A stretch of 64,000 bases of DNA from Agelas oroides (Eukaryota > Porifera > Demospongiae > Agelasida > Agelasidae): contig OX422192.1 in NCBI GenBank assembly GCA_949130485.1, forward strand, positions 5,888,085-5,952,084, read 5' to 3'. The translations under genes were made by a program, and so were the position numbers. The notes under the pieces are model-generated. The model searched no databases and was not told the DNA's origin. It worked only from the letters and a program-made list of their open reading frames with translations. This document shows, piece after piece, positions 3,201-64,000 of the stretch. Numbering within the stretch: position 1 is the first letter of the stretch; each line of letters begins with the position of its first letter.

Positions 3201-6200
3201 CAAACTTTGGCAGCTCTGTGGTATCACACATGCAGTGTACAATTAGAACACTGTTGTACTGATAGTTTAATGCAGAATCTAAGATGGTGGTTGATTCTCA
3301 AAATAAATGCAATACAAGTCTCAATATGTATCTATGACTAAAGTGTGGAAATATGATTACTATTACCACATGGACATGAAGCATGAAGTTAGTCCAATTT
3401 CTGTATGCCAAAACCACATGTAAGACTGTGAGTTGTTGAGAAGTGACAACAAAGAATTTACTGTACCTGATTGCATTTGGAACAAAGAATTTACTGTACC
3501 TGATTGTATCTGGAACTAGCTACATTCTTCCAAATTACACCAGTTTATGTACTTCAAGTATGCTGCTGTATCAGTCACGTATTCCGAGCAGAGTATGATT
3601 TATTCTATGACTTACAAATAGTCCAGCAGTACGGAGACTGTTTCCGCTCACTTTAGCCTTGCTAACAGTACCAACGCCGTAACTGCACCTTGTAAGGTGG
3701 ACGGTTACCTGTCTGCTCCATAGTGCGAACACTTTATTCTGACTTCAAACGTTGTGTACAGTGTTAAAATCTACAGACTGTCCTAGCCCGTTTCTGTACC
3801 ATTTAAGCAGTGCTAGCTTTGTCAAAACACTGTGAGAGTCAGTGAATGGAGATCATACCACAAGAGCACCTTACATTTGGGATACCAACACGGTTTCCAT
3901 ACATGCACAATTGGTATGGCCCACCCCCACAATACATAGCAAACAAAATTCAAAAGTTAGGTGGGCAGTTTCACTATAAAGACAACAAGCAACTACAACT
4001 GTAAAGTACAGTAACAAAGCACAACAGGCAGAGTGCAATGGCGAATGAAGTACAGTAACAAAACACAACAGGCAGAGTGCAATGGCGTCTGACTTGCTAT
4101 TGTATGAATGATCTTTAACTGTCATTGGTACAGCCAGTCTGTTAAAATCAGAAACTGTTCGATGATATCCCTGGATCAACTGTCTGGCAAGTTGGAAATT
4201 ATTTTCGGCATCCGTCAGGGTAGTGGCTAGCTGCTGGGAAGCAGTAGCGTCTGTCCAGCCATGTGTGGTTCAACAAACCAAGTAAGCACTGTGTTGCTGC
4301 ACGAATAACCATGCAGAAATATTTGTGTGACGCTTTGACTACATATTGTGCTAACACTGAGTACAGTATACGGGGGTTCTATAGTGTTGGCAGTGCCTCT
4401 CCTAGAAAGCACTAGGGGGAATCATCCCACAAAAAAACACAAAAATGTCCCGTTTTTATGTGCATAATTACTTGTGATATTTGCAAATATTTATTTCAAA
4501 CTGTGCTGCTATATATACTCACTCAACCACAAATATACACCCCTGACTCAGCAATATACTCCCTGCGGTCACAACAGCAGGGTGCACTGTATATGCCATA
4601 TAAGACCGCATGCGGTGCCTTTGAGCCGCCCACGCACTGTAGTATAATATTATAGGTGTTTAAATAGTGAGAACTATAAATATTTACATAATCAACTATA
4701 CACGTTAGCTCTATGAATACTTATAATTTGTGTTTGCAACAAAGTAACTAGCGTTAATTTGAATGAACGTGCATGCATGTGCGTGAAGTGTGTGTGAAGC
4801 ATTTACGCTCAGCGGGCTAGTCCTCAACAAGCATGCAATTGTACATGCAAGCATATGCACAAACAGTACGCTGATATGCTCACGCTACACTATTTAAAAT
4901 GAGAAGAGATCGGTGAAAAGCTTTAGGCACGTGTGAATGAGACTGTGCGGAACTCAATCTGTCTTAGCGGGGTTGGGGTCTGAGCGTAGAAAGCAAGGCG
5001 GAGAGATGCTCCTGACACTAGCGGGAGGCTGGCGAGCTTCAGTGTTGAGGGGCGAGGAAGTAGGGCGCTTCCGTGAAGTAGCTGGCATGTCCATTGTTGC
5101 TGCGGGCGGTCCGCGTTCGCGGTAGACACTTTAACAGTAGACAGCCGAGTGGCTTAAATAAACGTAATCTCAATATTTCGACTTTGGGATGAGTCTTCTT
5201 CAGGAGATGACTGGTGACTGTGAGGTGAGTCTTTATATACCATGGCTGTCTGACAAGTGATGATACATGAAAGAGGAAAGAATGCTTTGATACAGGAATA
5301 AACATGGGACAAGAGTACCGGAAGGGAAGAGTGGAGGAAATGCAATATGTTGTTGGTACATAGAGGTATTTGCAGTCGGGCCAGGGACTTGGTTCCTAGC
5401 CTAGATGCTCATGTTACTCAGGGAGGCCTATGTTGTAGAGTATTGGGAATTAAGACCAAAGGGGAGGACTGTGTTAAGTGCCCTGATCCAATGTATCTCA
5501 CGAGATAGGAGCTGGTTTGGGGGGCAATGTTCAAGGGGCAGGATTCTTGTGTAATTCTGTGATGTAATCCGTAAGTTAGTTTAAGTATACGTGAGTTTTA
5601 TACTCAGTAGTCAGTCCACCAGAAAAATCATGTGTGCCTGCTGTTTTGCCGATAATGTTTTGACTAAGAATAAGAGTCAGTTAACCACACTAGCCCACAG
5701 CGGCATTACAATTGGAGGTCGTAGCCGAGACTAGTAACAGCGAAGCGATTCCTGGCATACTCGGAACTTTGCCTCTCTATCCCGCCGTGAGTCGATGTAG
5801 TCAGGCCAGAAAATCCCAGAGCAACTTGAGCAAGATGCCGCAAAAGACAAAGACTCAGCTGAGAGACGAACTTGAACAAGCTAAGAAGGAGTTAGCAGAG
5901 GTTCAAGTGAAAACCCAAGCTGAGGTGACCGCAGCGAGAGAGTCCGAACGGAAGCTGCAAGAGTCGGAACGGCGTCTCAAGCATGAGGTGGTGGAGCTGC
6001 GTCGACGCGCCACGGAGTCGGAAAGGGAACTGAATGAGGCAACAGCCGAATTGTCTATTGCACAAGACAAGGTGGAGGATCTCGAAGCTTCTCTGCGTCA
6101 AGCCCAGTCGAGAAGCCGTGCAGGTACGACTGCAGAGGGCGGACCCGACAATTTAGAGGTGGGTTCATTGATAAGGGATCTAGAGGATGCCCGGGACAAT

Positions 6201-9200
6201 GCCTTAGAGTCCTTGGACCGTTCACAGTGGGAGATGGATAGAATGAAAAGAGACTTTGAGTATCAGTTGTTGAAGGTCCAGGAAAGCATGAGGGAAGAGC
6301 TTGAATTAAAGTATACGAGGGATATTAAGACACGTGACGAACTTATTGAGTTGTTGAAAGCTAAAGTGTCTGACGGTTCCCTAAAACTACACAGTGGTGA
6401 GCACACTGTCTCCGTCATAAATGGGCGGGAATCGCACAGCTCAGGAGGCGGGTCAAATGAGCCAGAGGCTGTGGAGGACCTTAGCCGTGCTAATCGTTTG
6501 AAACTTCCTGCACAACCAAAGTTTAGTGGTGATGACAGGGATGATGTTGACTCATTAAAGAGATGGTTGGCCAAGTTGGAGAAGCATGCTGAGCTGCAGT
6601 GTTGGACTGAGCGGGAAAAATTGGTCCAGTTTGAGTTGCATTTGGCTGGACGTGCTGAGCGTGTGTATGAGGTTTTGCCAAGCCATGTCAAGGAGAGCTA
6701 TGTTAAGGCAACAGAGGCTCTGCAGGAGAGGCTGAATCCAGTAGAGAGAGAGTCCTTGGTGTCAGCTCAGTTGATGCACCGCAAGCAGCAACCGAACGAA
6801 TCTGTAGACAAGTTTGCACAAGATTTGGAGAAGTTGTTTGAGCGTAGCTATGGACGCAGGAAGGGAATGGATGAGAGCAGCAAGGAGATGCTGAAGAGAA
6901 TTTTTTGTGCAAGGTTTGTGGTTGAAGTGGCAGGAGAAGGTGCTACCATCAGCCAAGACCTTCCATGATGCATTGCACCAAGCTCGTGCAGCTGAGCAGC
7001 AGGAAAAGCAGCTCTCGAGTCTCCATTGTTCAGGGTCGGGTACAAAGTTGAACCCGTATGTGAAACCCATGGCCAGTGCAAGGACACAGAAGACTCCAGT
7101 AACATTTCAAAGAGAGCCTAGGCTGGCTAGGCCTGATACTGCACCCAGAAAGAGTAAAGTGTCTGGCCTATGCTATGAGTGCCATGGACCTGGTCACCAT
7201 TGGCGTGACTGCCCAGAACTCAAGCCACCTAGCGAGACTCCAGGAAAGAACAGAGCAAGTCAGCAAGCAACCAGTTCAGTAGTTTCGGCCACCCACTCAC
7301 ATGAGACGTTGGAAGATCGATGCCAAAGACTAAGGCAGGAGTGGGTTGATGCTGAGTTCTTGCTCCTTTCTCAGGGGTATGAAGGGAAGGCCAACGTTGA
7401 CAAAGTTGCAGGGGCTGTTGGTCCTTTGTATTACTGCACAGTGAACATTGCAGGAGAGCCTGTCAAGGCCACTGTAGATACCGGTTCGTCGGCGACTATC
7501 CTCTCATGGGATGTATTTCAAGCCATTGGCAGAAAGGCCCAGGTTCCAGCAAGTGCTCTGTATAAGCCTGAAGTTACTCTGTGCGACTACAGTCAGAGGC
7601 CTATTTTTGTGGGAGCAATGGTAGACCTTGAGGTTGAGTTCTATGGGAAGAGTGTTGTTGTCCCTATTTACTTGCGAGCTGCAAGACATGCTGGATCAGA
7701 ACCCTGTCTGCTGGGGACAAATGTTGTTGGCCCTTTGGGTCTGATGTGCCCAGCTGTTGGAGTGGAACCACGTAGAGGGGATGACAGATCCAATTCTACA
7801 GCGATTGTTCAGCTGGTGCATTCACAGAGGGTGCCTAGCCAGAAAGGAACATATCTGGAAGCACAAGTTGAGACATCACCGTCTAGCGCACTATTGTTTG
7901 AGCCTAACCGAGGCTGGATGGCTTCAATGGGAGTGGAAGTTGAGGACTCTGTGATTCACTCTGATGCTAAAGGTCGAATTTGGATACCTGTTAGCAACCA
8001 CTCTACTGGGACAGTTGAGTTGCAACCGAATGTTCCCATTGGGAGTGTGGTGGCACTGTCAGAGAGAGAAGGTACTTTGTGTGAAGAGTCTGGGGTAGAC
8101 TTGCAGGTTTCACAGCTTGAGAGTGCCTATGCAGCAAGCATTTATGCTACCTATTCGGAATCTGATGAACAACGAAAGAGGAAGTTGACGTCAATGTTGC
8201 AGATACCCCAGTGTAATCTCACTGAAGAGCAAGCTCAGAAGCTGATTGATTGTGCTGTTGAGTTTCATGCTGCTTTTGCATTGGATGATGGTGAAAGAGG
8301 TGAGGCTAAAGGTGTTGAACATGTGATTGACACTGCCGATAGCCAGCCAATACGTCAGATACTTCGAAGAGTACCATTCGCTTTGTGGGAGGAGATATCC
8401 AGGATGGTTCAGGAAATGTTGAAGGGGGAAGTGATCCAGGAGTCAGCGAGTCCATGGGCCAGTCCAGTGGTCCTTGTCTGAAAGAAAGATGGGGCACTAC
8501 GCTTTTGTGTAGATTATAGGCGACTCAATGCTGTGACCCGCAAGGATACTTTCCCATTCCCCAGAATTGACAACCTATTGGATCAGCTCAAAGGCAAGAG
8601 CATCTTTACCACTTTGGATGCCAAACGAGGTTACTGGCAAATCAGAGTCAAGAAGAATCCCAGGAGAAGACAGCCTTCGTCACATTTGATGGGTTGTATG
8701 AATTTCGGGTTATGCCCTTCGGCCTCTGCAACACACCAGCAACTTTTCAAAGATTGATGCAGAGAGCACTGGTGGGCATGAGCAAGTTTTGCAGTGTTTA
8801 CATTGATGATCTTCTCTGAGAATGTTGACGAGCACATTGGACATTTGCGTCAGGTGTTTTCCCGTCTATGTGAAGTGGGTTTGAAGTTGCATCCTCAGAA
8901 GTGTGTTCTCGGTTGTCCTGAAGTGCCTTACCTAGGCTATGTTATTTCTGCTGAGGGGATTTTTCCTAACCCGGACAAGATCTTAGCAGTCAAGGAGTTC
9001 CCTACCCCTACTAACGTCAGAGCTGTGAGACAGTTTCTCGGTTTGGCAAGTTAGTATCGGCGGTTTGTGCCTGATTTCGCCAAGGAAGCTGGACCACTGC
9101 ACATGTGACAAGAGCCAATGTTCCATTTGTGTGGTCAGAATCCTGTCAGGAGGCTTTTAGTCGGTTGAAGGAGCTCCTCACATCACCCCCAGTGCTTGCT

Positions 9201-12200
9201 TACCCTGATTTCTTGAAGCCGTTTGTGTTGCACACGGATGCCAGTGGCAGGGGTCTGGGAGCAGCACAAGAGCAGGCTGATGGAAAGAATCATCCAATTG
9301 CCTATGCCAGCCGTACCTTGTCACTGCATGAGTAACGGTATGAAATTACAGAACTGGAAACTTTGGCTGTGGTGTGGAGCTTAAGACACTTTTGTGCTTA
9401 CCTGCATGGACACAAGTGTATCGTCTACACAGATCATTCTCCAGTGAAATCTCTTTTGAAGACTAAGCACCCTTCTGGCAAACTGGCTCACTGGGGAGAA
9501 GTGGTGTTGGAGTTTGATCTTGAAGTGAAGTACCGCCCCGGACACAAAAATGCAAATGCTGACGCACTGTCTCAATCACCCATCAGTCAGTCTGAGTTGG
9601 AGGATGATGACGAAGCGTTTCATTCTGTGCAAGTGGGAGCAGTTGTTCCTGATGTAAGTGACAGTGAAGGGATTACAGAGGAGAATGAGGAACTGGTGAA
9701 ACTCCAGCGTCAGGATAAAGAGCTAGGACCGGTAGTGACTTTCTTGGAACAAGGACTATTACCACCTGAGGAGAATATTGCTAGATGATTAACTCTTGAG
9801 AAATGTCAGTATGTGGTTCTGGACAAAGTGCTGTATCGGATTGATGACTTGAGGAAGAACAGATTGCGTTTGTGTGTACCCGTGTGTATGAGAAGAGAAC
9901 TCATGAAAGAGGCACATGGTGGGAGGTTTGCTGGACACTTTTCACCCAAAGGAGTGTACTCCATGTTAGCCCAGAGGTACTGGTGGGACGGCATGTATAA
10001 GGATATTCATGCGTACTGTCAAAGCTGTTTAACTTGTGCCAGCTATCGGGGTACAGGGAGGAGAGTAAGGCCATGGCTGATGCCTATTCCAGTGGGAGGA
10101 CCGTTCTATCATGTTGGAGTGGACATCATGGAGCTTCCACAAACAGTGAATGGCAACTGTTATGTCATATCGTTTGTTGATTATCTCACCAAGTGGGTTG
10201 AGTCATTTCCCACGGATAACCTAACAAGTAAGACCATTGTGAGGCTCCTGATTGATCATGTGATATGTTGCCATGGGGTGCCTGAAGCTCTGATATCTGA
10301 TCGTGGCCCCAATCTTCTGTCAACTCTAATGCAAGAGGTATGTGAGGTGACCGGTATGCAGAAGTTGAATACCACAGCTTATCACCCCCAAGCTGATGGG
10401 TTAGTGGAGAATTTCAATAGAACTTTGCGGGCCATGCTTGCCAAATATGCTGCAAAGTTTGGTGTGAACTGGGATGAACACCTCCATCATCTGCTCTTTG
10501 CATATCGAACTAAACCACATGAGTCCACTGGTGAGTCACCGTTTTCCCTGTTATATGGCCGTGATGCTAGAATTCCCTGTGAGACCATGTTATCCACTAC
10601 TTGCACCGCATATCAAGTTGACATTGATGACTACAAGTCCGAGTTGGTATTTGGACTATCTGAGGCCTGGGAATTGGCCAGGAAGGAGATTCAAAGATCT
10701 CAAAAGAAGCAGAAGTACCAGTATGATTGCCATGCTAAGCAGAGAGATTTCCGAGCCGGTGATAGGGTAATGGTGTGTATTCCCTATGAACAAACTGGCA
10801 AGAATCGAAAGCTTTCCAGGCCATACTTTGGACCTTATCGGGTGTTGGAAGTACATCCAAATGGTGTCACTGTTCGACCAGTTGACTGTCCCAGTGATAA
10901 ATCTATCCGAGTTAATTTGGATCGAGTGACTCTGTGTCCAGTGGAGTTACCTGATGAGTCTTGGCTGGGACGAAAACGCCAGACTAGGAAAACTCGTAAG
11001 ACTTGAACAGTGAGTAACTGACTTAGTTGTTATTATCCTGGTTTGTACGTGTAAGCTAGCTAATGTCAAGTTTTGTAGTTTTTTTATTATGGTTCATGTT
11101 TTATTTTCTTTGTTTGTAACGTACGAAGTACGAGGCCGTCCTTCTGATTAGGAGGCGGGTGTTGTAATTCTGTGATGTAATCCGGAAGTTAGTTTAAGTA
11201 CGTGAGTTTTATACTCAGTAGTCAGTCCACCAGAAAAATCATGTTGAGTTGTGTGCCTGCTGTTTTGCCGATAATGTTTTGACTAAGAATAAGAGTCAGT
11301 TAACCACACTAGCCCACAGCAGCGTTACACTTGCATGCATCTCGAAGCTGTGTCCTCTGGAGCTGAAGTGGCGGTAGATGGGCCAGGTGCTCTTCCTCTT
11401 CTCCTTTGCTGCAGATCTATGGTGGCCAAAACAATTAAGTAGAGATTTAGAAGTTTGTCCTACATACATTTTGGAACATTTAGAACTGATGATGCAGTAG
11501 ATAAGACTGGTACTTTTACAGGTGAAGGTATCAGTGAGGTAGAAGGGTTGACATGTAACGCTAGAATGGATGACATTGTAGGAAAGTAGTTTAGGGCTGG
11601 TTCGTCAAAGTGGGTGATTACATGGCTTTACTCTTTTAGCGGTTGTACTTATCTGCAGTGGGACGTCGGCTGTAGGGGGAGGGGGTCTTCCAAGTGTCTT
11701 AGCAGAGACTAGGTGGTTGGAAACTGCCTTTTCTCGTCTGAAGCAAAGCTGTGGAGTAGAGAAGAGTTGTGTGAGGTTTGTGTCCTTAGAGATAAGGTCC
11801 CAATAATGAGTTAGAGTTTGATAGAGGTGAGTAAGCGAGGGGGAGTAAGGAGTGATGAATCTGGGGGTGATGGGGTTAGGTATGATATTAAGGCTAGAGG
11901 AGAGGTTGAGGTTAGGGGTAGGAGGAGGTTGGATGTAGTTGTTTCTAAGGGAGTATGGAACTGTGGAGAGGAGTGGGTCAACAAAACTTTTAGGGTACCC
12001 CTACAGAGTAGGTGATGCCTAAAAGTTGAGATTGTTCTTTCGTAGTTATCCTGGCTTGAGTTGGACCTAAGGAACCGAATGGCCTCACCCTTCACCAAGC
12101 CCTTAGAGTGTGCGTGAAGTGTGTCAGTCATTTCTCCAACGGAACCGGAAGTAACTAGAGCCCATACAAATTTATTTTTAACACGTGGGTGAGGGATTGA

Positions 12201-15200
12201 AGAATTGCGCCGCGCTCAGATTTTCGACCGCAACTTGGCACTGTTTTTACGATGCAAGGTAGCGACAGAACAACGATCTACTGTATACGCGTGAACACCC
12301 ACCACTTTTCTTTCAAGCAATCGAAACAGGAACCTGAAATCTGCCTGGATACGCTGTTGACAAGGCCAAGAACATACCTATATCAATTCGAGGCCGTACG
12401 CAAAAGTTGTCGGGAAACTATTTTTACAAGGTGCTATTCTTTCATGCCATACACAACCGGAAGAAAAAGGGTAGTAGTTAATGCTAAAGACACTCGGATT
12501 TGTTCCGGTGTGCTGATTACCATGCGCGCGCGGTCAAACATGCATGCAGCTGCTGGCAATTAATAACTGTACACAAAGAAAATTATATGAGCAACATGAA
12601 AACATTGCATGATAAGAGAGCATTATGAAACAGGCTGAACATAACTGAAGTGACAGGGGTGAAAGAGCTATTTTTGTACACAAACACATATCTCTTGTCT
12701 GAAATTAGGAGGTAAGAAGATATAAAAATAACAACTGCCCTTTTCTGGATCACCTACACCAAAGTGGAGACAGATATGAGTTGAATGGTTTGCTTGGAAG
12801 GGCATCCCCAATCTTGGTCTTGGAAGAATTAGAAAGCTCTTCACATGATCCTGATAGTTGTGTGCGGTCCCTCTGCAGTGAAAACAATGCAAGTATTTGT
12901 TATGGCATGAATGCATTGTGCAGCGATTCTTTAGAAGGCCCAGACAGGGAACAGTAAGTCGGAGACACTTTATGTTGAACTGCTCACTAATCTTTACACA
13001 ATCACTGTAATTGCACAACATTCCTTGACCTCCAATGGAATGTTGCAAAATCGCAGTGATTGCATAACGTTCTAAGAAATTCAGCCCTAGGCTTACTGTT
13101 CTAGTCCAGCCCTTCCATAGAGTCACTGTACAACGCGTTCATGTCACTCTAGTCAACACGACCAACATATCTGTGACCGATCTCCACACTTAGCGCTTGA
13201 CCTCCAATATAATGTATTACCATGGAAACTGGATCCTCAGAAAGAAGTCAACTTGACTTTGAAGTCCAACCAAGGAGGCTTGGCTACCATCTTGCCCTAT
13301 GTAAATCAAGGGATCAACAGTAAATAATTAAGGGAGATTTTTTGCTAATCAAGATAATTTATCCTGGTTGCAAATGCTTCTGCAGGTGAGCTATATAGGC
13401 GACTACTCTTTGAATTTGAACCATTGGTTGAGCCTGTGAGTAGGCAAGTGTATGCACTCACTCAGGCTTGCCCCCATAATGTTATGGGGTGCCGTTTGTG
13501 TTTATCAAATCTGCGACCTTTACTAAACCTCGATTGATCTCTACTAGAAAAGGCAATCCATTGATCTTTACTAAACATCGACTGCTGTTTCGTAAAGGGT
13601 CGCATAAGGTACCGGGTGAAAGCCGCATACGTCATCATGAATGCATGCCATGCCACGTACTAGGACTTTTGTAAGACAGCATGAGAAAAGCCTGCAATTT
13701 GGAAGCACGTACAGCTATGGGTTGAAGTTCTTTGTTGTTAAAGATCACCTGAGGGATGGCGCCCCTTCCAAATTGCAGCCTTTTCTCATACTGACAGACA
13801 AAAGTTAGAAGTATGCAGAGGGCGTGGCACGGCAATGCATTAATGATGACGTATGCGGCTTTCACTCGGTACCTTACACGACCTTTTACGAAACAGCAAC
13901 CGATGTTTACTAAACTTCGATCGATGTTTAGCAAACATTGATCGATCTTGGCTAAACATATTTGCTATACATATTTTGCTGAACATCGATTGATGTTTTG
14001 TAAAAATTGATGGATTGCCTTTTCTAGTTGAGATCAATCAATGTTTACTAAAGATGGATTGATGTTTCGATCAGTAAGGTCACGGGTTTGATAAACATTA
14101 CTAAAAACCGGAGTTTTTACACAAACTGCACCCCATACAATGCCCTACATTCACCTACTAGCGACAGTGATTACGTGGTGTGATTCTAGTTTATTCCTTC
14201 ATATTACTAATAGCCTGCAAAGCATTGTATTTGTACATGTGCTGAATATAGGTAGTCCGGAAACCTTTTTTACAGTACAGTAAACACACAATTTTCAGTG
14301 TAACACCTTCAGCAGTTGGTTGGTAACAACATACCTCAGTTCTAGCTTGTTCCAGTAAATGCAAGAAAAAATAGATCCCACCAGCTTCCCTAAATCACCC
14401 TGTCCAATTATGGAACGACGACAAACTCGGCGTTGAATCACGCGGCATGACAGTTTGGATTAAACATTCTCACTGCAACAAGAACCCCTACTTCATAGTC
14501 AAACATCACGCACTGTTGCCGCTTCCCAGGGTAGTGTGAGCGATGAGAAAAAGCGCTCTTTCTCAGCGAGAGTTCTTCGTTACTATTCACGACCACGAGG
14601 TGACTGTAATGACGTAACTTTAAAAATAAAAATCACGTGAGCGTTCCGGAACGATGGCGAAACGACTGGTGTGTGAAGCATTTACGCTCAGTGGGTTAGT
14701 CCTCAACAAGCATGCAATTGTACATGCAAGCATATGCACAAACAGTACGCTGATAAGCTCACACTACACTATTTAAAATGAGAAGAGATCGGTGAAAAGC
14801 TTTAGGCACGTGTGGATGAGCCTGGAACACCATTTGCCAGACTGTGTGGAACTCAATCTGACTTAGTGGGGGGGAGTTGTCTGTTTCCTCGCCCCAAGCC
14901 TATGGTCCTGAACTAAGAGTATACAGTCTCTCTTCATTCCCTAGTCTTCCACACATGTTGCAATACTCCTAACACCCATTCCTAATTATTGCAGGTAACA
15001 GAGCTGAGGTGAATGCCTAGGAACAAGGCTACAGTTAGCTAGTAACTATTTCAATGTCTATGACATAGTTGATAGGGCAGACTTAATATTATTTTATAGG
15101 GTAAAGAAACTTTTTCACAAGAAGAGTACTGACAGCTCACAGCTCAGAATTTTATTTTTGAAAGTTGAAGGGTATGCTGTAGTTGTGGTTATGAAGACAT

Positions 15201-34025: not shown

Positions 34026-34197
34026 AGTCAAACTTGTCCATTCCAAGAGTAGTGACAAACATGAGTCTAGCCTGACTTTTGAGAGTAGCTCTGAACAAAA
34101 GCTGACATAGATTGGTTTGAGATACATTGGTGGTTAGGACACTACCTACAGTTAGCATGTAGCTAGATGCGTCCATCAGTGGCAATTTTGGGTTCAT
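33853..34197 (-). other. Open frame crossing the palindrome border, unknown product
   Basis: 114 codons from ATG 34197 to stop 33853, starting in the unique spacer and running into the left arm. The arm part (EKFTACLWEGLIHEWKQALL) is also open in the right arm at 35077-35249, with two amino acid differences near its start. I recognise no family. Conservation may be simply arm identity. It may be an exon of a neighbouring gene cut by the rearrangement. Confidence 0.3.
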
Positions 34198-36189: not shown

Positions 36190-36195
36190 TTTATT
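36190..36195 (-). promoter_or_regulatory. Poly(A) signal AATAAA, right TRPA-like gene
   Basis: TTTATT on the plus strand, the mirror of the left signal, about 246 bp beyond the stop at 36441. Confidence 0.62.
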
Positions 36196-36440
36196 GCTGA
36201 AAGAAATAACTATATATCAAATTCATTGATTAATAAACAAGTTCCAACATCAGAAAATTTCATTAAAGTGACATAGTATACGTACAACAAAAGGAGTTGC
36301 AAATAATATGCATTCGCAATGTATCATATTGCAAGAGCATAGTCTAATTTCAAGTCAGCATCCTAAACAAACACCTATAAATGACTAGCAACTTTAACCA
36401 TAACTGCTACTGAAAACGCTGCAAAAGTTGTTATTTTCAA

Positions 36441-52946: not shown

Positions 52947-52982
<36 letters not shown>

Positions 52983-53240
52983 AGAGCATCACAATAACTA
53001 TATAAGCTAGTGAACTCAAGAAAATCTGTGCTCTTGGTATATACCTGGAATCAATGTTAGTTTCACCCTCTTCACCTGAGGACTGTTTGTCTGAAGATTT
53101 ATCGTCCTGGAAGTCCTCAAGGAATTCATAGTTGAACATACCCTTGAGCTTGTGACTGTCAGCATGTACCTCTTCTTCCCATGTTGCACCTTCAGCTTTA
53201 TTGGTTGTAACACATCTACTGAAGGCCCTTTCAGCCACAT
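36441..53240 (-). CDS. TRPA-like cation channel, right copy (exons 4-16 only)
   Basis: Mirror copy of the left gene, transcribed towards the window centre. Exons in gene order: 53240-53045, 52943-52886, 52808-52634, 51084-51031, 50967-50549, 48614-48429, 47926-47858, 46526-46218, 38876-38721, 38459-38373, 38071-38030, 37355-37224, 36563-36441. Every exon length equals the left copy except the last, shorter by 21 bp (one heptad). No frameshift or stop was seen, so it looks intact from the pre-S1 linker to the C-terminus. Substitutions include N to S early in the pore exon and, in the S2-S5 exon, I to M, K to Q and I to V. The ankyrin exons would lie past 64000. If the window is two joined haplotypes, this is the other allele rather than a paralogue. 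Confidence 0.87.
39384..39562. mobile_element. MITE-E, right copy
   Basis: Mirror of 29523-29702 with the same inverted ends and only small changes. Confidence 0.83.
39675..39830 (-). repeat. 60 bp tandem repeat, three units (right arm)
   Basis: Three units with ccaatcaccgtgatctttgg and tctgggaataagactgcatg, one more than the left arm. Confidence 0.85.
40548..41045. mobile_element. piggyBac-type MITE, right copy
   Basis: 498 bp between TTAA at 40544-40547 and 41046-41049, the mirror of 28097-28594 with the same length. Confidence 0.87.
42433..42690. mobile_element. MITE-D, right copy
   Basis: Mirror of 26458-26717. Confidence 0.8.
42751..43144. mobile_element. MITE-C, right copy
   Basis: 394 bp, the longer form. 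The centre holds about 35 bp (ttggcttcgcgaacgttcga and flanks) missing from the left copy. Confidence 0.83.
44340..44874 (+). pseudogene. Penelope-2 GIY-YIG fragment, right copy
   Basis: Mirror of 24026-24540 with the same internal frameshift after GRTLEY. The GIY-YIG core (VVYQVPCASC, IIGQTGRTLEY) and the tail (ALEAWHIRSKQHDP) are readable. It ends at MITE-B, whose TA is at 44875-44876. Confidence 0.82.
44877..45329. mobile_element. MITE-B, mariner-type, right copy
   Basis: 453 bp between TA dinucleotides, the mirror of 23571-24023. Confidence 0.87.
47309..47689. mobile_element. Fold-back insertion H, right arm only
   Basis: 381 bp absent from the left arm, where tacgtaaaaccatttag is uninterrupted. 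It is flanked by a TAAA duplication (47305-47308, and the copy at 47686-47689). Inside is a long hairpin: ttattacacgagttagcgtg mirrored by cacgctaacgagtgtaataa, with the core attttcacgagccgaaggcg. A second part has three copies of cccgtgcaataactac. The core matches fold-back G at 16686, so both belong to one family. Confidence 0.88.
48960..49170 (-). repeat. Penelope-associated head block, right copy
   Basis: Mirror of 20040-20290. Confidence 0.6.
49261..49675. mobile_element. MITE-A copy 3 (right arm)
   Basis: Mirror of 19572-19985, with intact inverted ends taccgtatttcttcgattag. Confidence 0.85.
51110..51985. repeat. Cluster of inverted gaggcctcagccgaatt repeats, right arm
   Basis: Mirror of 17260-18120 with the same alternating modules. 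Confidence 0.7.
51640..51702 (+). repeat. tRNA-derived SINE-like piece, right copy (deleted anticodon stem)
   Basis: A box tagtggtttaatgg and B box gggttcgaatccc are present. About 11-13 bases that form the anticodon stem and loop in the left copy are missing (taagagtattcagaag). The loss lies between short agt repeats. Confidence 0.72.
52390..52422. repeat. Remnant of fold-back G in right arm
   Basis: One outer arm (gccttctcacccatcaaata) remains. The hairpin and second arm seen at 16686-16848 are absent, with accgattaa-like bases at the joint. Confidence 0.7.
52949..52981 (+). repeat. G33 homopolymer (C33 at splice acceptor of right gene)
   Basis: Thirty-three G residues; on the gene strand, the C-run before the acceptor of exon 52943-52886. 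The left arm has 15. Confidence 0.85.
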
Positions 53241-54993
53241 CTAATGGGATAAGAAATGTTGCACTGATCACAACAGCTTAAGGTACTTCATGGACCTGTA
53301 ATGTAGGATATATCCTCTATGCAACAAAAATGATACCACAATCAAAGTAACTCATAAATAAAAAGCAATTCATTCTATATTGACATATTAGTATCTGGCT
53401 AAATCTTGTGGCAGTGAGCCATGCAGCCTTAGCTGTTAGTCTTTATCTCGTGTCAAGAATCTACTTGTGTGGTGTGCACATGCTGATTGTAGGCAAAGGG
53501 TCGATGTGGATTTGCAAAAAAAAGTTTTACATGATGAAAATTTGGATGAGGCAATTGATTTTTTTAATATTTTTTGAATGTACATGACATAATTTGACAG
53601 TTTTTAATCTATAGTTAGTGGTGTCAAGTATGTGAAATATGAATAGTACATGCCTGTAAACCTCCAAACTTTTCAACAAAATAGCCACAGTATATCAGCA
53701 CACAAATATTACTTCGCCTCATTCTGCACTTAATAAGAATAGCTACACACAACCATAGATAGTTCCCCATATTTTGCACTTTCTGGAATAAATTTTACGT
53801 TCAAATTACTGAAAACCAAAAACATTCCCTTTAATTGAGACACCAGCGACAATTTAGTCAGAAGTAAATCCAAGCAAAAATGAGTCTGACCTGTAACCTT
53901 AGCAGCAAGGATCTGATTGCAGTGTAATGTCTTCATAACCACAACTACAGCATACCCTTCAACTTTCAAAAATAAAATTCTGAGCTGTGAGCTGTCAGTA
54001 CTCTTCTTGTGAAAAAGTTTCTTTACCCTATAAAATAATATTAAGGCTGCCCTATCAACTATGTCATAGACATTGAAATAGTTACTAGCTAACTGTAGCC
54101 TTGTTCCTAGGCATTCACCTCAGCTCTGTTACCTGCAATAATTAGGAATGGGTGTTAGGAGTACTGCAACATGTGTGGAAGACTAGGGAATGAAGAGAGA
54201 CTGTATACTCTTAGTTCAGGACCATAGGCTTGGGGCGAGGAAACAGACAACTCCCCCCCCCCGCTAAGTCAGATTGAGTTCCACACAGTCTGGCAAATGG
54301 TGTTCCAGGCTCATCCACACGTGCCTAAAGCTTTTCACCGATCTCTTCTCATTTTAAATAGTGTAGTGTGAGCTTATCAGCGTACTGTTTGTGCATATGC
54401 TTGCATGAACAATTGCATGCTTGTTGAGGACTAACCCACTGAGCGTAAATGCTTCACACACCAGTCGTTTCGCCATCGTTCCGGAATGCTCACCTGATTT
54501 TTATTTTTAAAGTTACGTCATTACAGTCACCTCGTGGTCGTGAATAGTAACGAAGAACTCTCGCTGAGAAAGAGCGCTTTTTCTCATCGCTCACACTACC
54601 CTGGGAAGCGGCAACAGTGCGTGATGTTTGACTATGAAGTAGGGGTTCTTGTTGCAGTGAGAATGTTTAATCCAAACTGTCATGCCGCGTGATTCAACGC
54701 CGAGTTTGTCGTCGTTCCATAATTGGACAGGGTGATTTAGGGAAGCTGGTGGGATCTATTTTTTCTTGCGTTTACTGGAACAAGCTAGAACTGAGGTATG
54801 TTGTTACCAACCAACTGCTGAAGGTGTTACACTGAAAACTGTGTGTTTACTGTACTGTAAAAAAGGTTTCCGGACTACCTATATTCAGCACATGTACAAA
54901 TACAATGCTTTGCAGGCTATTAGTAATATGAAGGAATAAACTAGAATCACACCACGTAATCACTGTCACTAGTAGGTGAATGTAGGGCATTGT
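53241..54993. other. Right-arm intron stretch
   Basis: Mirror of 14137-15886. It includes a Penelope-associated tail block at 54240-54465. No exon was recognised. Confidence 0.5.
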
Positions 54994-55646
54994 ATGGTGT
55001 TCAGTTTGTGTAAAAACTCCGGTTTTTAGTAATGTTTATCAAACCCGTGACCTTACTGATCGAAACATCAATCCATCTTTAGTAAACATTGATTGATCTC
55101 AACTAGAAAAGGCAATCCATCAATTTTTACAAAACATCAATCGATGTTCAGCAAAATATGTATAGCAAATATGTTTAGCCAAGATCGATCAATGTTTGCT
55201 AAACATCGATCGAAGTTTAGTAAACATCGGTTGCTGTTTCGTAAAAGGTCGTGTAAGGTACCGAGTGAAAGCCGCATACGTCATCATTAATGCATTGCCG
55301 TGCCACGCCCTCTGCATACTTCTAACTTTTGTCTGTCAGTATGAGAAAAGGCTGCAATTTGGAAGGGGCGCCATCCCTCAGGTGATCTTTAACAACAAAG
55401 AACTTCAACCCATAGCTGTACGTGCTTCCAAATTGCAGGCTTTTCTCATGCTGTCTTACAAAAGCCCTAGTACATGGCATGGCATGCATTCATGATGACG
55501 TATGCGGCTTTCACCCGGTACCTTATGCGACCCTTTACGAAACAGCAGTCGATGTTTAGTAAAGATCGATGGATTGCCTTTTCTAGTAGAGATCAATCGA
55601 GGTTTAGTAAAGGTCGCAGGTTTGATAAACACAAACGGCACCCCAT
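54994..55646. mobile_element. Fold-back element F, right copy
   Basis: Mirror of 13484-14136, nearly the same length, with inverted gtttgataaacac and gccgcatacgtcatcat motifs. Confidence 0.75.
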
Positions 55647-57002
55647 AACATTATGGGGGCAAGCCTGAGTGAGTGCATACACTTGCCTACTCACAGGCTC
55701 AATCAATGGTTGAAATTCAAAGAGTAGTCGCTTATATAGCTCACCTGCAGAAGCATTTGCAACCAGGATAAATTATCTTGATTAGCAAAAAATCTCCCTT
55801 AATTATTTACTGTTGATCCCTTGATTTACATAGGGCAAGATGGTAGCCAAGCCTCCTTGGTTGGACTTCAAAGTCAAGTTGACTTCTTTCTGAGGATCCA
55901 GTTTCCATGGTAATACATTATATTGGAGGTCAAGCGCTAAGTGTGGAGATCGGTCACGGATATGTTGATCGTGTTGACGAGAGTGACATGAACGCGTTGT
56001 ACAGTGACTCTATGGAAGGGCTGGACTAGAACAGTAAGCCTAGGGCTGAATTTCTTAGAACGTTATGCAATCACTGCGATTTTGCAACATTCCATTGGAG
56101 GTCAAGGAATGCTGTGCAATTACAGTGATTGTGTAAAGATTAGTGAGCAGTTCAACAAAAAGTGTCTCTGACTTACCGTTCACTGTCTGGGCCTTCTAAA
56201 GAATCGCTGCACAATGCATTCATGCCATAACAAATACTTGCATTGTTTTCACTGCAGAGGGACCGCACACAACTATCAGGATCATGTGAAGAGCTTTCTA
56301 ATTCTTCCAAGACCAAGATTGGGGATGCCCTTCCAAGCAAACCATTCAACTCATATCTGTCTCCACTTTGGTGTAGGTGATCCAGAAAAGGGCAGTTGTT
56401 ATTTTTATATCTTCTTACCTCCTAATTTCAGACAAGAGATATGTGTTTGTGTACAAAAATAGCTCTTTTACCCCTGTCACTTCAGTTATGTTCAGCCTGT
56501 TTCATAATGCTCTCTTATCATGCAATGTTTTCATGTTGCTCATATAATTTTCTTTGTGTACAGTTATTAATTTCCAGCAGCTGCATGCATGTTTGACCGC
56601 GCGCGCATGGTAATCAGCACACCGGAACAAATCCGAGTGTCTTTTAGCATTAACTACTACCCTTTTTCTTCCGGTTGTGTATGGCATGAAAGAATAGCAC
56701 CTTGTAAAAATAGTTTCCGGACAACTTTTGCGTACGGCCTCGAATTGATTGATATAGGTATGTTCTTGGCCTTGTCAACAGTGTATCCAGGCAGATTTCA
56801 GGTTCCTGTTTCGATTGCTTGAAAGAAAAGTGGTGGGTTTTCACGCGTATACAGTAGATCGTTGTTCTGTCGCTACCTTGCATGGTAAAAGCAGTGCCGA
56901 GTTGCGGTCGAAAATCTGAGCGCGGCGCAATTCTTCAATCCCTCACCCACGTGTTAAAATAAATTTGTATGGGCTCTAGTTACTTCCGGTTCCGTTGGCG
57001 AA
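55647..57002. other. Right-arm intron stretch next to Penelope-1
   Basis: Mirror of 12132-13483. The small hairpin around 56060-56140 recurs. No gene recognised. Confidence 0.45.
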
Positions 57003-57796
57003 ATGACTGACACACTTCACGCACACTCTAAGGGCTTGGTGAAGGGTGAGGCCATTCGGTTCCTTAGGTCCAACTCAAGCCAGGATAACTACGAAAGAAC
57101 AATCTCAACTTTTAGGCATCACCTACTCTGTACGGGGTACCCTAAAAGTTTTGTTGACCCACTCCTCTCCACAGTTCCATACTCCCTTAGAAACAACTAC
57201 ATCCAACCTCCTCATAACTCTAACCTCAACCTCTCCTCTAGCCTTAATATCATACCTAACCCCATCACCCCCAGATTCATCACTCCTTACTCCCCCTCAC
57301 TTACTCACCTCTATCAAATTCTAACTCATCATTGGGACCTTATCTCTAAGGACACAAACCTCACACAACTCTTCTCTACTCCACAGCTTTGCTTCAGACG
57401 AGAAAAGGCAGTTTCCAACCACCTAGTCTCTGCTAAGACACTTGGAAGACCCCCGCCCCCTACAACCGACGTTCCACTGCAGATAAGTACAACCGCTAAA
57501 AGAGTAAAGCCATATAATCACCCACTTTGTCTAACCAGCCCTAAACTACTTTCCTACAATGTCATCCATTCTAGCGTTCCCTTCTACCTCACTGATACTT
57601 TCACCTGTAAAAGTACCAGTCTTATCTACTGCATCATCAGTTCTAAATGTTCCAAAATGTATGCAGGACAAACTTCTAAATCTCTACTTAATCGTTTTGG
57701 CCACCATAGATCTGCAGCAAAGGAGAAGAGGAAGAGCACCTGGCCCATCTACCGCCACTTCAGCTCCAGAGGACACAGCTTCGAGATGCATGCAAG
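57003..57796 (+). pseudogene. Penelope-1 fragment: RT thumb and GIY-YIG endonuclease, right copy
   Basis: Open for about 265 codons up to the gypsy LTR at 57797. The N-terminal part is the end of RT (HSKGLVKGEAIRFLR), then a Pro/Ser/Asn-rich linker, then the GIY-YIG domain (SLIYCIISSKCSKMYAGQTS, SLLNRFGHHRSA and SSRGHSFEMHA). Upstream RT catalytic motifs are absent (5' truncated). Unlike the left copy there is no frameshift near its start, so this is the better copy. Its last segment, present on the left at 5428-5549, has been deleted here. Confidence 0.83.
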
Positions 57797-57963
57797 TGTA
57801 ACGCTGCTGTGGGCTAGCGTGGTTAACTGACTCTTATTCTTAGTCAAAACATTATCGGCAAAACAGCAGGCACACAACTCAACATGATTTTTCTGGTGGA
57901 CTGACTACTGAGTATAAAACTCACGTACTTAAACTAACTTCCGGATTACATCACAGAATTACA
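57797..57963 (-). repeat. Gypsy 3' LTR, right copy
   Basis: 167 bp, the mirror of 11163-11329, starting tgtaacgctgctgtgggcta on the plus strand and ending cacagaattaca. Confidence 0.92.
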
Positions 57964-58119
57964 ACACTCGCCTCCTAATCAGAAGGACGGTCTCGTACTT
58001 CGTACGTTACAAACAAAGAAAGAAAAACATGAACCATAATAAAAAAAATACAAAACTTGACATTAGCTAGCTTACACATACAAACCAGGATAATAACAAC
58101 TAAGTCAGTTACTCACTGT

Positions 58120-59311
58120 TCAAGTCTTACGAGTTTTCCTAGTCTGGCGTTTTCGTCCCAGCCAAGACTCATCAGGTAACTCCACTGGACACAGAGTCAC
58201 TCGATCCAAATTAACTCGGATAGATTTATCACTGGGACAGTCAACTGGTCGAACAGTGACACCATTTGGATGTACTTCCAACACCCGATAAGGTCCAAAG
58301 TATGGCCTGGAAAGCTTTCGATTCTTGCCAGTTTGTTCATAGGGCATACACACCATTACCCTATCACCGGCTCGGAAATCTCTCTGCTTAGCATGGCAAT
58401 CATACTGGTACTTCTGCTTCTTTTGAGATCTTTGAATCTCCTTCCTGGCCAATTCCCAGGCCTCAGATAGTCCAAACACCAACTCGGACTTGTAGTCATC
58501 AATGTCAACTTGATATGCGGTGCGAGTAGTGGATAACGTGGTCTCACAGGGAATTCTAGCATCACGCCCATATAACAGGGAAAACGGTGACTCACCAGTG
58601 GACTCGTGGTTTAGTTCGATATGCAAAGAGCAGATGATGGAGGTGTTCATCCCAGTTCACACCAAACTTTGCAGCATATTTGGCAAGCATGGCCCGCAAA
58701 GTTCTATTGAAATTCTCCACTAACCCATCAGCTTGGGGGTGATAAGCTGTGGTATTCAACTTCTGCATACCGGTCACCTCACATACCTCTTGCATTAGAG
58801 TTGACAGAAGATTGGGGCCACGATCAGATATCAGAGCTTCAGGCACCCCATGGCGACATATCACATGATCAATCAGGAGCCTCACAATGGTCTCACTTGT
58901 TAGGTTATCCGTGGGAAATGACTCAACCCACTTGGTGAGATAATCAACAAACGATATGACATAACGGTTGCCATTCACTGTTTGTGGAAGCTCCATGACG
59001 TCCACTCCAACATGATAGAACGGTCCTCCCACTGGAATAGGCATCAGCCGTGGCCTTACTCTCCTCCCTGTACCCCGATAGCTGGCACAAGTTAAACAGC
59101 TTTGACAGTACGCATGAATATCCTTATACATGCCGTCCCACCAGTACCTCTGCGCTAACATGGAGTACACTCCTTTGGGTGAAAAGTGTCCAGCAAACCT
59201 CCCACCATGTGCCTCTTTCATGAGTTCTCTTCTCATACACACGGGTACACACAAACGCAATCTGTTCTTCTTCAAGTCATCAATCCGATACAGCACTTTG
59301 TCCAGAACCAC
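58120..59311 (-). pseudogene. Gypsy integrase, right copy
   Basis: HHCC head, DDE residues (VGVDVMELP, LISDRGPNL, GLVENFNRT) and GPY module as in the left copy. A 2 bp deletion near 58607 (cacgag for cacatgag) splits it into two frames, 59311-58592 and 58650-58120. Confidence 0.87.
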
Positions 59312-59335
59312 ATACTGACATTTCTCAAGAGTTAA

Positions 59336-60025
59336 TCATCTAGCAATATTCTCCTCAGGTGGTAATAGTCCTTGTTCCAAGAAAGTCACTACCGGTCCTA
59401 GCTCTTTATCCTGACGCTGGAGTTTCACCAGTTCCTCATTCTCCTCTGTAATCCCTTCACTGTCACTTACATCAGGAACAACTGCTCCCACTTGCACAGA
59501 ATGAAACGCTTCGTCATCATCCTCCAACTCAGACTGACTGATGGGTGATTGAGACAGTGCGTCAGCATTTGCATTTTTGCGTCCGGGGCAGTACTTCACT
59601 TCAAGATCAAACTCCAACACCACTTCTCCCCAGTGAGCCAGTTTGCCAGAAGGGTGCTTAGTCTTCAAAAGAGATTTCACTGGAGAATGATCTGTGTAGA
59701 CGATACACTTGTGTCCATGCAGGTAAGCACGAAAGTGTCTTAAGCTCCACACCACAGCCAAAGTTTCCAGTTCTGTAATTCCATACCGTTACTCATGCAG
59801 TGACAAGGTACGGCTGGCATAGGCAATTGGATGATTCTTCCCATCAGCCTGCTCTTGTTCTAGGACTGCTCCCAGACCCCTGCCACTGGCATCCGTGTGC
59901 AACACAAACGGCTTCAAGAAATCAGGGTAAGCAAGCACTGGGGGTGATGTGAGGAGCTCCTTCAACCGACTAAAAGCCTCCTGACAGGATTCTGACCACA
60001 CAAATGGAACATTGGCTCTTGTCAC
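59336..60025 (-). pseudogene. Gypsy RNase H region, right copy
   Basis: Contains LHTDASGRGLGAVLEQE, AYASRTLS and YTDHSPVKSLL. Interrupted by a stop near 59790. The Asp and Glu catalytic residues are visible. Confidence 0.84.
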
Positions 60026-60075
60026 ATGTGCAGTGGTCCAGCTTCCTTGGCGAAATCAGGCACAAACCACCGATA

Positions 60076-60650
60076 CTAACTTGCCAAACCGAGAAACTCT
60101 CTCACAGCTCTGACGTTAGTAGGGGTAGGGAACTCCTTGACTGCTAAGATCTTGTCCGGGTTAGGAAGAATCCCCTCAGCAGAAATAACATAGCCTAAGT
60201 AAGGCACTTCAGGACAACCGAGAACACACTTCTGAGGATGCAACTTCAAACCCACTTCACATAGACGGGAAAACACCTGACGCAAATGTCCAATGTGCTC
60301 GTCAACATTCTCAGAGAAGATCATCAATGTAAACACTGCAAAACTTGCTCATGCCCATCAGTGCTCTCTGCATCAATCTTTGAAAAGTTGCTGGTGTGTT
60401 GCAGAGGCCGAAGGGCATAACCCGAAATTCATACAACCTATCAAATGTGACGAAGGCTGTCTTCTCCTGGGATTCTTCTTGACTCTGATTTGCCAGTAAC
60501 CTCGTTTGGCATCCAAAGTGGTAAAGATGCTCTTGCCTTTGAGCTGATCCAATAGGTTGTCAATTCTGGGGAGTGGGAAAGTATCCTTGCGGGTCACAGC
60601 ATTGAGTCGCCTATAATCTACACAAAAGCGTAGTGCCCCATCTTTCTTTC
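60076..60650 (-). pseudogene. Gypsy reverse transcriptase, right copy
   Basis: Same pattern of frame changes as the left copy: TTLDAKRGYWQI, then a frame change, VYIDD near 60320, and the thumb (LHPQKCVLGC) in 60336-60076. Confidence 0.83.
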
Positions 60651-62225
60651 AGACAAGGACCACTGGACTGGCCCATGGACTCGCTGACTCCTGGATCACT
60701 TCCCCCTTCAACATTTCCTGAACCATCCTGGATATCTCCTCCCGCAAAGCGAATGGTACTCTTCGAGGTATCTGACGTATTGGCTGGCTATCGGCAGTGT
60801 CAATCACATGTTCAACACCTTTAGCCTCACCTCTTTCACCATCATCCAATGCAAAAGCAGCATGAAACTCAACAGCACAATCAATCAGCTTCTGAGCTTG
60901 CTCTTCAGTGAGATTACACTGGGGTATCTGCAACATTGATGTCAACTTCCTCTTTCGTTGTTCATCAGATTCCGAATAGGTAGCATAAATGCTTGCTGCA
61001 TAGGCACTCTCAAGCTGTGAAACCTGCAAGTCTACCCCAGACTCTTCACACAAAGTACCTTCTCTCTCTGACAGTGCCACCACACTCCCAATGGGAACAT
61101 TCGGTTGCAACTCAACTGTCCCAGTAGAGTGGTTGCTAACAGGTATCCAAATTCGACCTTTAGCATCAGAGTGAATCACAGTCCTCAACTTCCACTCCCA
61201 TTGAAGCCATCCAGCCTCGGTTAGGCTCAAACAATAGTGGGCTAGACGGTGATGTCTCAACTTGTGCTTCCAGATATGTTCCTTTCTGGCTAGGCACCCT
61301 CTGTGAATGCACCAGCTGAACAATCGCTGTAGAATTGGATCTGTCATCCCCTCTACGTGGTTCCACTCCAACAGCTGGGCACATCAGACCCAAAGGGCCA
61401 ACAACATTTGTCCCCAGCAGACAGGGTTCTGATCCAGCATGTCTTGCAGCTCGCAAGTAAATAGGGACAACAACACTCTTCCCACAGAACTCAACCTCAA
61501 GGTCTACCATTGCTCCCACAAAAATAGGCCTCTGACTGTAGTCACACAGAGTAACTTCAGGCTTATACAGAGCACTTGCTGGAACCTGGGCCTTTCTGCC
61601 AATTAATGGCTTGAAATACATCCCATGAGAGGATAGTCGCCGATGAACCGGTATCTACAGTGGCCTTGACAGGCTCTCCTGCAATGTTCACTGTGCAGTA
61701 ATACAAAGGACCAACAGCCCCTGCAACTTTGTCAACGTTGGCCTTCCCTTCATACCCCTGAGAAAGGAGCAAGAACTCAGCATCAACCCACTCCTGCCTT
61801 AGTCTTTGGCATCGATCTTCCAACGTCTCATGTGAGTGGGTGGCCGAAACTGCTGAACTGGTTGCTTGCTGACTTGCTCTGTTCTTTCCTGGAGTCTCGC
61901 TAGGTGGCTTGAGTTCTGGGCAGTCACGCCAATGGTGACCAGGTCCATGGCACTCATAGCATAGGCCAGACACTTTACTCTTTCTGGGTGCAGTATCAGG
62001 CCTAGCCAGCCTAGGCTCTCTTTGAAATGTTACTGGAGTCTTCTGTGTCCTTGCACTGGCCATGGGTTTCACATTCGGGTTCAACTTTGTACCCGACCCT
62101 GAACAATGGAGACCCGAGAGCTGTTTTTCCTGCTGCTCAGCTGCACGAGCTTGGTGCAATGCATCATGGAAGGTCTTGGCTGATGGTAGCACCTTCTCCT
62201 GCCACTTCAACCATAAACCTTGCAC
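60649..62225 (-). pseudogene. Gypsy zinc knuckle, protease and start of RT, right copy
   Basis: Zinc knuckle CYECHGPGHHWRDC and protease TVDTGSSATIL lie in 62225-61563. A short insertion near 61603 and a 2 bp deletion near 61181 move the frame twice before the RT start (SPWASPVVLV), which ends at the same TGA as on the left. Confidence 0.84.
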
Positions 62226-63540
62226 AAAAAATTATCTTCAGTATCTCCTTGCTGCTCTCATCCATTCCCTTCCTGCATCCATAGCTACGCTCAAACAACT
62301 TCTCCAAATCTTGTGCAAACTCGTCTACAGATTCGTTCGGTTGCTGCTTGCGGTGCATCAACTGAGCTGACACCAAGGACTCTCTCTCTCTACTGGATTC
62401 AGCCTCTCCTGCAGAGCCTCTGTTGCCTTAACATAGCTCTCCTTGACATGGCTTGGCAAAACCTCATACACACGCTCAGCACGTCCAGCCAAATGCAACT
62501 CAAACTGGACCAATTTTTCCTGCTCAGTCCAACACTGCAGCTCAGCATGCTTCTCCAACTTGGCCAACCATCTCTTTAATGAGTCAACATCATCCCTGTC
62601 ATCACCACTAAACTTTGGTTGTGCAGGAAGTTTCAAACGATTAGCATGGCTAAGGTCCTCCACAGGCATTGTCCCGGGCATCCTCTAGATCCCTTATCAA
62701 TGAACCCACCTCTAAATTGTCGGGTCCGCCTTCTGCAGTCGACCCGCCTCCTGAGCTGTGCGATTCCCGCCCATTTATGACGGAGACCGTGTGCTCATCA
62801 CTGCGTAGTTTTAGGGAACCCTCAGACACTTTAGCTTTCAACAACTCAATAAGTTCGTCACGTGTCTTAATATCCCTCGTGTACTTTAATTCAAGCTCTT
62901 CCCTCATGCTTTCCTGGACCTTCAACAACTGATACTCAAAGTCTCTTTTCATTCTATCCATCTCCCACTGTGAACGGTCCAAAGACTCTAAGGCATCGTC
63001 CCGGGCATCCTCTAGATCCCTTATCAATGAACCCATCTCTAAATTGTCGGGTCCGCCTTCTGCAGTCGTACCTGCACGGCTTCTCGACTGGGCTTGACGC
63101 AGAGAAGCTTCGAGATCAGTGGCGTAGCTAGAAGTTGACAGTTGGTAGGGCACAAGTACAGACTGGGAACGAGACATGTACTTGGGTAGGCGTGGTTTGT
63201 AGACACATGTCTGTCGTACTCAGTAGACGAAGAGAAGCCCAGCGTGCCTGGCGGTTGCTCGAATGAAGCTACGTACGTACAGCACTGTTACACTGGCGGT
63301 TGTGTAGCTCCAGTAAGTGAGAAAGCCGGACGGTAGGGCTCCAGTTGGTAGGGCACTTGCAGCAGTTGGTAGGGCCTAGGCCCTACCAGGCCCTACCTTA
63401 GCTACGCCACTGTTCGAGATCCTCCACCTTGTCTTGTGCAATAGACAATTCGGCTGTTGCCTCATTCAGTTCCCTTTCCGACTCTGTGGCGCGTCGACGC
63501 AGCTCCACCACCTCATGCTTGAGATGCCGTTCCGACTCTT
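62164..63540 (-). pseudogene. Gypsy gag, right copy (rearranged)
   Basis: The gag domain (KEILKIIF, LQERLNPVERE) and upstream coiled coil are present, but the N-terminus is deleted. A hAT-type MITE (63117-63412) interrupts the coiled coil. A stretch of about 85 bp (about 62665-62742) is an extra copy of 62994-63068 replacing about 15 bp, which disrupts the frame. Confidence 0.83.
63117..63412. mobile_element. hAT-type MITE, right arm only
   Basis: 296 bp flanked by the 8 bp duplication ttcgagat (63109-63116 and 63413-63420). Inverted ends are cagtggcgtagcta and, at the right, tagctacgccactg. An 8 bp duplication with CAGTGGCG ends is the hAT signature. Inside, gttggtagggc is repeated. The left arm shows the empty site at 6079-6086. 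Confidence 0.93.
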
Positions 63541-63940
63541 GCGAAATATTGAGATTACGTTTATTTAAGCCACTCGGCTGTCTACTGTTAAAGTGTCTAC
63601 CGCGGACGCGGACCGCCCGCAGCAACGATGGACATGCCAGCTACTTCACGGAAGCGCCCTACTTCCTCGCCCCTCAACACTGAAGCTCGCCAGCCTCCCG
63701 CTAGTGTCAGGAGCATCTCTCCGCCTTGCGTTCTACGCTCAGCCCCCAACCCCGCTAAGACAGATTGAGTTCCGCACAGTCTCATCCACACGTGCCTAAA
63801 GCTTTTCACCGATCTCTTCTCATTTTAAATAGTGTAGCGTGAGCATATCAGCGTACTGTTTGTGCATATGCTTGCATGTACAATTGCATGCTTGTTGAGG
63901 ACTAGCCCGCTGAGCGTAAATGCTTCACACACACTTCACG
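63541..63940 (+). repeat. Penelope-associated tail block, right copy
   Basis: Mirror of 4780-5180 (gaaatattgagattacg, taagccactcggctgtctac), joined directly to gag by the 776 bp deletion. Confidence 0.6.
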
Positions 63941-64000
63941 CACATGCATGCACGTTCATTCAAATTAACTTTGTTGCAAACACAAATTATAAGTATTCAT

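Follow-up and report, generated by a model that had tools for sequence, protein, structure and literature searches.

Several kinds of large inverted duplication have been described in animal genomes, and they are cited here and below from excerpts of the published reports. In human inverted duplications, each of 21 sequenced junctions carried a single-copy spacer (range 766-70,466 bases, with a median of 3,428), short inverted homology was reported at junctions, and fold-back of a broken strand was invoked (PMC3907307). Palindromes of the primate X chromosome have a median arm of 37 kb and a median identity of 99.953% (PMC8981503), and the mean minimum conversion tract of human palindrome P6 was given as 2,068 bases (PMC3723533). 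Palindromes have also been counted in Folsomia candida, with 16 and 11 found by two analyses (PMC7953838, PMC5490193), and in Botryllus schlosseri, where three were judged real by depth and structural checks (PMC12448946). Here we describe two inverted arms of about 29 kb facing each other around a spacer of about 1 kb in a 64,000-base stretch of the Agelas oroides assembly GCA_949130485.1 (contig OX422192.1, positions 5,888,085 to 5,952,084 of the forward strand). This whole stretch is called the window, and positions are counted from its first base. The sequence palindrome is confirmed, and it probably reflects a real inverted duplication.

Structure of the palindrome

Comparison of the window with its own opposite strand yielded an inverted chain of blocks with 95.6-98.8% identity (blocks longer than 300 bases), running from 4713/64000 inward to 34025/35077, and defined three parts:

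4713..34025, + strand: left arm, 29,313 bases, its extent being set by where its partner falls inside the window
34026..35076, no strand: spacer, 1,051 bases
35077..64000, - strand: right arm, 28,924 bases, with pairing that continues to the window end

The longest single inverted block scored 18,066 bits in this blastn comparison, against best inverted scores of 30.7-32.5 bits per sequence in five first-order Markov sequences of 64 kb modelled on the window. At the inner edges, base 34025 pairs with base 35077. Pairing continues at base 64000, so that both arm lengths are lower bounds and the outer ends lie beyond the window. No N character or assembly gap occurs anywhere in the 64 kb. A preliminary description of the locus had proposed arms of about 29 kb around a spacer of about 1 kb, matching to the window end, with these same inner edges and with about 1% base differences plus dozens of indels between the arms; the self-comparison and the alignment below bear out each of these features.

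Divergence of the arms

Global alignment of the arms revealed 302 mismatches in 28,016 ungapped columns, or 1.08%, together with 52 indel events, of which 11 span at least 15 bases and five at least 100 bases (777, 381, 304, 262 and 121). Transitions outnumber transversions by 215 to 87, and 87 of the 302 substitutions are of the CpG to TpG/CpA type, in a window that is itself CpG-depleted (observed/expected 0.48). The five largest indels are as follows, LTR denoting a long terminal repeat:

63118..63421, - strand: element of 304 extra bases, right arm only, with 14-base terminal inverted repeats (CAGTGGCGTAGCTA) and an 8-base target duplication, ATCTCGAA
47309..47689, - strand: 381 bases, right arm only, partly self-complementary, with TTTA at each edge, related to the 121-base left-arm insert
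16714..16834, + strand: 121 bases, left arm only, partly self-complementary
24693..24954, + strand: 262 bases, left arm only
5180..5956, + strand: 777 bases, left arm only, containing one of the two LTR-like repeats of a Ty3/gypsy-type retrotransposon

For the 304-base insertion, which we take to be a hAT-like element, the left arm keeps the exact empty site at 6077. The preliminary description had spoken of whole transposon insertions; this one case is clear from its terminal inverted repeats and 8-base duplication, and the others are only plausible. Overall, the transition excess, the CpG-type changes and the arm-specific insertion with its target duplication make the arm differences look like biological divergence.

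Two simple repeats were also recorded. At 52949-52981 the right arm has 33 consecutive G, against 15 C at the equivalent left-arm place (16146), and the left flank holds a tandem array of about 13.5 copies of a 31-32 base unit (2697-3114).

Junctions and possible artefacts

The spacer edges are sharp on both sides, and the arms differ almost up to them: the mismatches nearest the spacer sit 18 and 45 bases away, and the innermost 2.1 kb of the arms contain 21 substitutions. Variants that tell the arms apart near the centre include those at 33981 and 34008 and a 21-base unit at 32557. Differences this close to the centre indicate that the junction did not come from a one-molecule fold-back read. 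Hairpin reads, whether from a missed adapter, a duplex fold-back or a within-molecule amplification chimera, are frequent in amplified long-read data, where they made up 25.6-38.5% of matched mitochondrial reads in five tabulated individuals (PMC13265396). Such a read predicts arms identical save for read error and little or no unique spacer; the locus instead shows 1.08% divergence, a one-arm element with a target duplication, arms that are not identical at the junction and a spacer of 1,051 bases, which together render a hairpin read very unlikely. The view that divergence is too large for such an artefact, already put forward in the preliminary description, is upheld by the mismatches beside the spacer.

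A search with the spacer found no blastn match (E 1e-3) on either strand of positions 1-34025, the right arm not being searched separately; within that range, this rules out a spacer repeat with a further copy in the left arm or flank. Compared with its own inverse, the spacer likewise gave no blastn match, and the only inverted pairs inside it are two of 12 bases, at chance level. A transposon inserted in the centre of a perfect palindrome was considered and rejected: inspected by eye, the two ends of the spacer have neither a terminal inverted repeat nor a target duplication in common. Two putative exons were noted in the spacer:

34805..34850, + strand: candidate exon, no homologue found
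34965..35072, + strand: candidate exon, no homologue found

The donor of the second candidate exon, GTAAGC (35073-35078), straddles the edge between spacer and right arm. When the open frames at the junction and the spacer peptide were compared with protein families and the PDB, the searches returned nothing, or a single match at E 0.75. With no usable homologue found, gene continuity across the junctions cannot tell which edge is ancestral.

The preliminary description had named joined alleles and a real inverted duplication as the two alternatives, and comparison of the arms leaves these as the right pair. An assembly error that joined two alleles of one locus head to head in a heterozygous animal is a substantial possibility, albeit one to which we give less than even chances. 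Since the two arms already differ next to the spacer, such a join needs either a chimera between alleles, for instance by template switching in whole-genome amplification, or a path of the assembly graph that ran through a shared node of 1 kb, for instance at a heterozygous spacer inversion crossed by reads shorter than 1 kb. In the latter case, a path from the left allele through the spacer into the reverse of the other allele would be formally valid in a graph of pieces shorter than 1 kb. A chimera within one molecule would instead leave identity at the junction, where differences are seen from 18 bases on.

Divergence of 1.08% with presence/absence insertions is allele-like, and precedents for such errors exist: in three older vertebrate assemblies, 4-16% of the sequence consisted of false duplications, mainly of diverged haplotypes (PMC9516828), and artificial palindromes have been attributed, among other sources, to erroneous scaffolding (PMC7953838). 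The excerpted account of the former describes false duplications with gaps between the copies, whereas the window has none, and its chimeric PacBio palindromes reached raw-read length, 7-17 kb, against present arms of more than 28 kb (PMC9516828). Furthermore, the 33-base G run and the 13.5-copy array within a gapless 64 kb suggest that long reads were used, which would be able to cross a 1 kb node.

Origin of the palindrome

We consider a real inverted segmental duplication in the animal genome the probable explanation, and the gapless window and the sharp-edged spacer, which has no match in 1-34025, argue for it. In the proposed sequence of events, a broken or stalled strand would have been extended through the left arm and roughly 1 kb past it; by folding back, or by a switch to the opposite strand, it would then have recopied the arm in reverse, so that the loop stayed behind as a single-copy spacer. 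The arms would exist as one molecule in the cell and would since have diverged to about 1.1%, each gaining its own insertions, and one stretch of about 2 kb may lately have been made identical by arm-to-arm gene conversion. In a variant of this route, the homologous chromosome would have served as template for the second copy. The 1.1% would then have existed already at the moment of duplication and could not be used to date it.

The candidate gene-conversion tract is identical in the two arms:

29721..31633, + strand: identical tract in the left arm, 1,913 bases, no difference from 37450-39362
37450..39362, - strand: right-arm partner of the tract, 1,913 bases

The longest substitution-free run is 2,026 ungapped columns, and the longest run without any difference is the 1,913 bases of the tract, for which a uniform substitution rate predicts about 1e-8 tracts as long. 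Counted per kb, the substitutions give a variance-to-mean ratio of 2.58. These values were set against two-haplotype coalescent simulations, with 600 accepted runs at each of eight recombination/mutation ratios, a run being accepted only if its substitution total was 0.6-1.5 times that observed. Such evenness and such a run occurred jointly in 0-2.8% of the runs of simulated alleles, whichever of the eight ratios was used. Overall, the divergence statistics appear to lean slightly towards duplicates with a conversion tract, without deciding against alleles.

Several observations weigh against a real duplication. The case for it is built on assembled sequence, and 1.08% is ordinary heterozygosity for an outbred invertebrate. 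The joint criterion of evenness and run length was picked after the data had been seen, and neither the dispersion nor the tract alone would exclude alleles: with the recombination/mutation ratio set to 1, 3 or 10, simulated alleles reached dispersion as low as observed in fractions of 0.08, 0.50 and 0.92 of trials, matching it at a ratio of about 1 or more, and a run as long as observed in 0.26, 0.17 and 0.07. The gene conversion that the preliminary description expected of a real palindrome is weakly suggested by the single 1,913-base tract, and simulated alleles give a substitution-free run of that length in up to 26.5% of cases. A strictly uniform clock is rejected, also with the tract removed (P 0.004). 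Junction microhomology is readable only from an unduplicated locus, and the outer ends, where a finite arm would show, fall outside the window. Finally, the 2013 assembly of the rotifer Adineta vaga, based on 454 reads, contained 23 palindromic blocks with no counterpart in its relative A. ricciae according to the excerpted report, in which scaffolding error was raised for the breaks of collinearity (PMC5916493).

Codon changes do not separate the alternatives. The comparison included open frames of a TRPA-like ion channel:

18258..18704, + strand: left-arm open frame, TRPA-like ion channel; closest PDB entry TRPA1 (E 8e-15), with Ion_trans in Pfam at 9.5e-7
20593..20826, + strand: TRPA-like pore open frame, left arm; PDB TRPA1, E 4e-6; Pfam Ion_trans, 2.3e-6
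50540..50989, - strand: right-arm counterpart of the frame at 18258, open, with four residue differences

Between the arms, the two left-arm TRPA-like frames have three synonymous and seven non-synonymous differences. Two frames adjoining them, presumably part of that gene, show no difference across 447 bases, and the frame at 22350 shows two synonymous changes and one non-synonymous. The counts were taken on open frames, which are not verified exons, and indels left five of the 13 comparisons without a count; with so few changes in such uncertain frames, the numbers carry no argument.

Gene and element content

The right arm being the reverse of the left, the two TRPA-like genes face each other, one per arm, in convergent, tail-to-tail orientation. 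Further features with a coding or mobile-element signature are:

100..1447, + strand: ankyrin repeats, matched around 100-192 and 1316-1447, upstream of the arm part that is paired in the window
about 5550..11333, + strand: Ty3/gypsy-type retrotransposon, with LTR-like repeats at 5550-5714 and 11163-11333 that are 91.9% alike
30186..32664, + strand: putative coiled-coil gene with repeated stretches, defined by open reading frames only, one of which stops with TAA at 32662-32664

The ankyrin repeats probably belong to the TRPA-like gene, as its 5' part. They came from two of nine sequences scanned; a third had one match far below the cut-off, which was taken as chance. A search of genome_contigs for relatives of the TRPA-like frame returned 51 stretches that fitted the pattern, none of them confirmed. 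No family scored above the cut-off for the putative coiled-coil gene (30.2-32.7 kb). Long-frame Pfam scans in which stops were written as X returned no family for three of three, nine of nine and six of six frames and for one peptide; these scans were insensitive, having missed in both TRPA-like frames the Ion_trans domain that single frames gave, and their blanks mean little. Among further PDB searches, one gave two chance-level matches (E 0.08) and another none.

RNase H and integrase domains of the gypsy-type element exceed the Pfam cut-off, and gag-like and protease-like matches fall below it. A search of viral_contigs for relatives of the integrase segment found three stretches that fitted the pattern, none confirmed. 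Its presence in both arms implies that the element is older than the arm split. The right-arm copy is without 777 bases, including one LTR-like repeat; because the piece (5180..5956) holds one of the element's two such repeats, it was probably lost from the right arm rather than gained in the left.

Other repeats lie in or beside the arms. The gypsy-type element is flanked on both sides by a 156-base direct repeat (4790-4945 and 14669-14824, 96% alike). A dispersed repeat of about 400 bases occurs once in the left flank (407-792) and once per arm (19571-19973 and 49273-49676), the flank copy being 86% like the arm copies. On the - strand, 17549-17610 is a tRNA-like Rfam match of 41.8 bits, where ARAGORN calls no tRNA and which has no above-threshold counterpart in the right arm; it is perhaps the head of a short interspersed nuclear element. 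An open frame in the right arm (56958-57830) contains a GIY-YIG-like stretch just under the Pfam cut-off, and perhaps encodes a retroelement endonuclease; the corresponding left-arm region (11302-12215) is broken into shorter frames.

Implications and comparison with known palindromes

If real, the palindrome is an instance of an already known kind, large and old enough for divergence and a possible conversion tract. With conversion and divergence side by side, it would be useful for gauging arm-to-arm conversion outside mammalian sex chromosomes. A fuller picture, which we offer tentatively and regard as unlikely to hold as a whole, is of a standing palindrome of at least 59 kb with two convergent TRPA-like genes, whose arms are mostly unhomogenised but exchange sequence near the centre through conversion tracts of about 2 kb, possibly representing alleles frozen in cis from the homologous chromosome. 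If an artefact, the locus is a warning, as a gapless and plausible palindrome would inflate gene counts (here, two TRPA-like genes) and would mimic claims made for asexual animals.

Adjacent copies at allele-like divergence are what the locus shares with false haplotype duplications; unlike those described in the excerpted report, its copies are inverted around a sharp-edged spacer and have no gap between them (PMC9516828). With the palindromes of Adineta vaga, Folsomia candida and Botryllus schlosseri it has in common inverted homologous blocks on one animal scaffold and the same doubt between a real structure and the assembly. Those palindromes were found by gene collinearity, as far as the excerpts describe, whereas here the junction is visible at base level and gapless. 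Arm size, genes in the arms and an identical tract of conversion size (1,913 versus 2,068 bases) recall the sex-chromosome palindromes of primates (PMC8981503, PMC3723533). In contrast to their median identity of 99.953% (PMC8981503), the present arms are mostly unconverted, and their identity by substitutions, 98.92% over 28,016 columns, lies below the level of more than 99% that marks the mammalian sex-chromosome type. The human fold-back cases are patient variants, most of those tabulated having a terminal deletion, and are mostly larger, whereas the present palindrome is a feature of an assembly and is 1.1% diverged (PMC3907307). In its architecture, the locus nevertheless resembles these inverted duplications: its inverted copies flank a spacer of 1,051 bases, which has no match in 1-34025 and falls within their size range, the mark of fold-back being inverted copies set apart by single-copy sequence of about 0.8-70 kb (PMC3907307).

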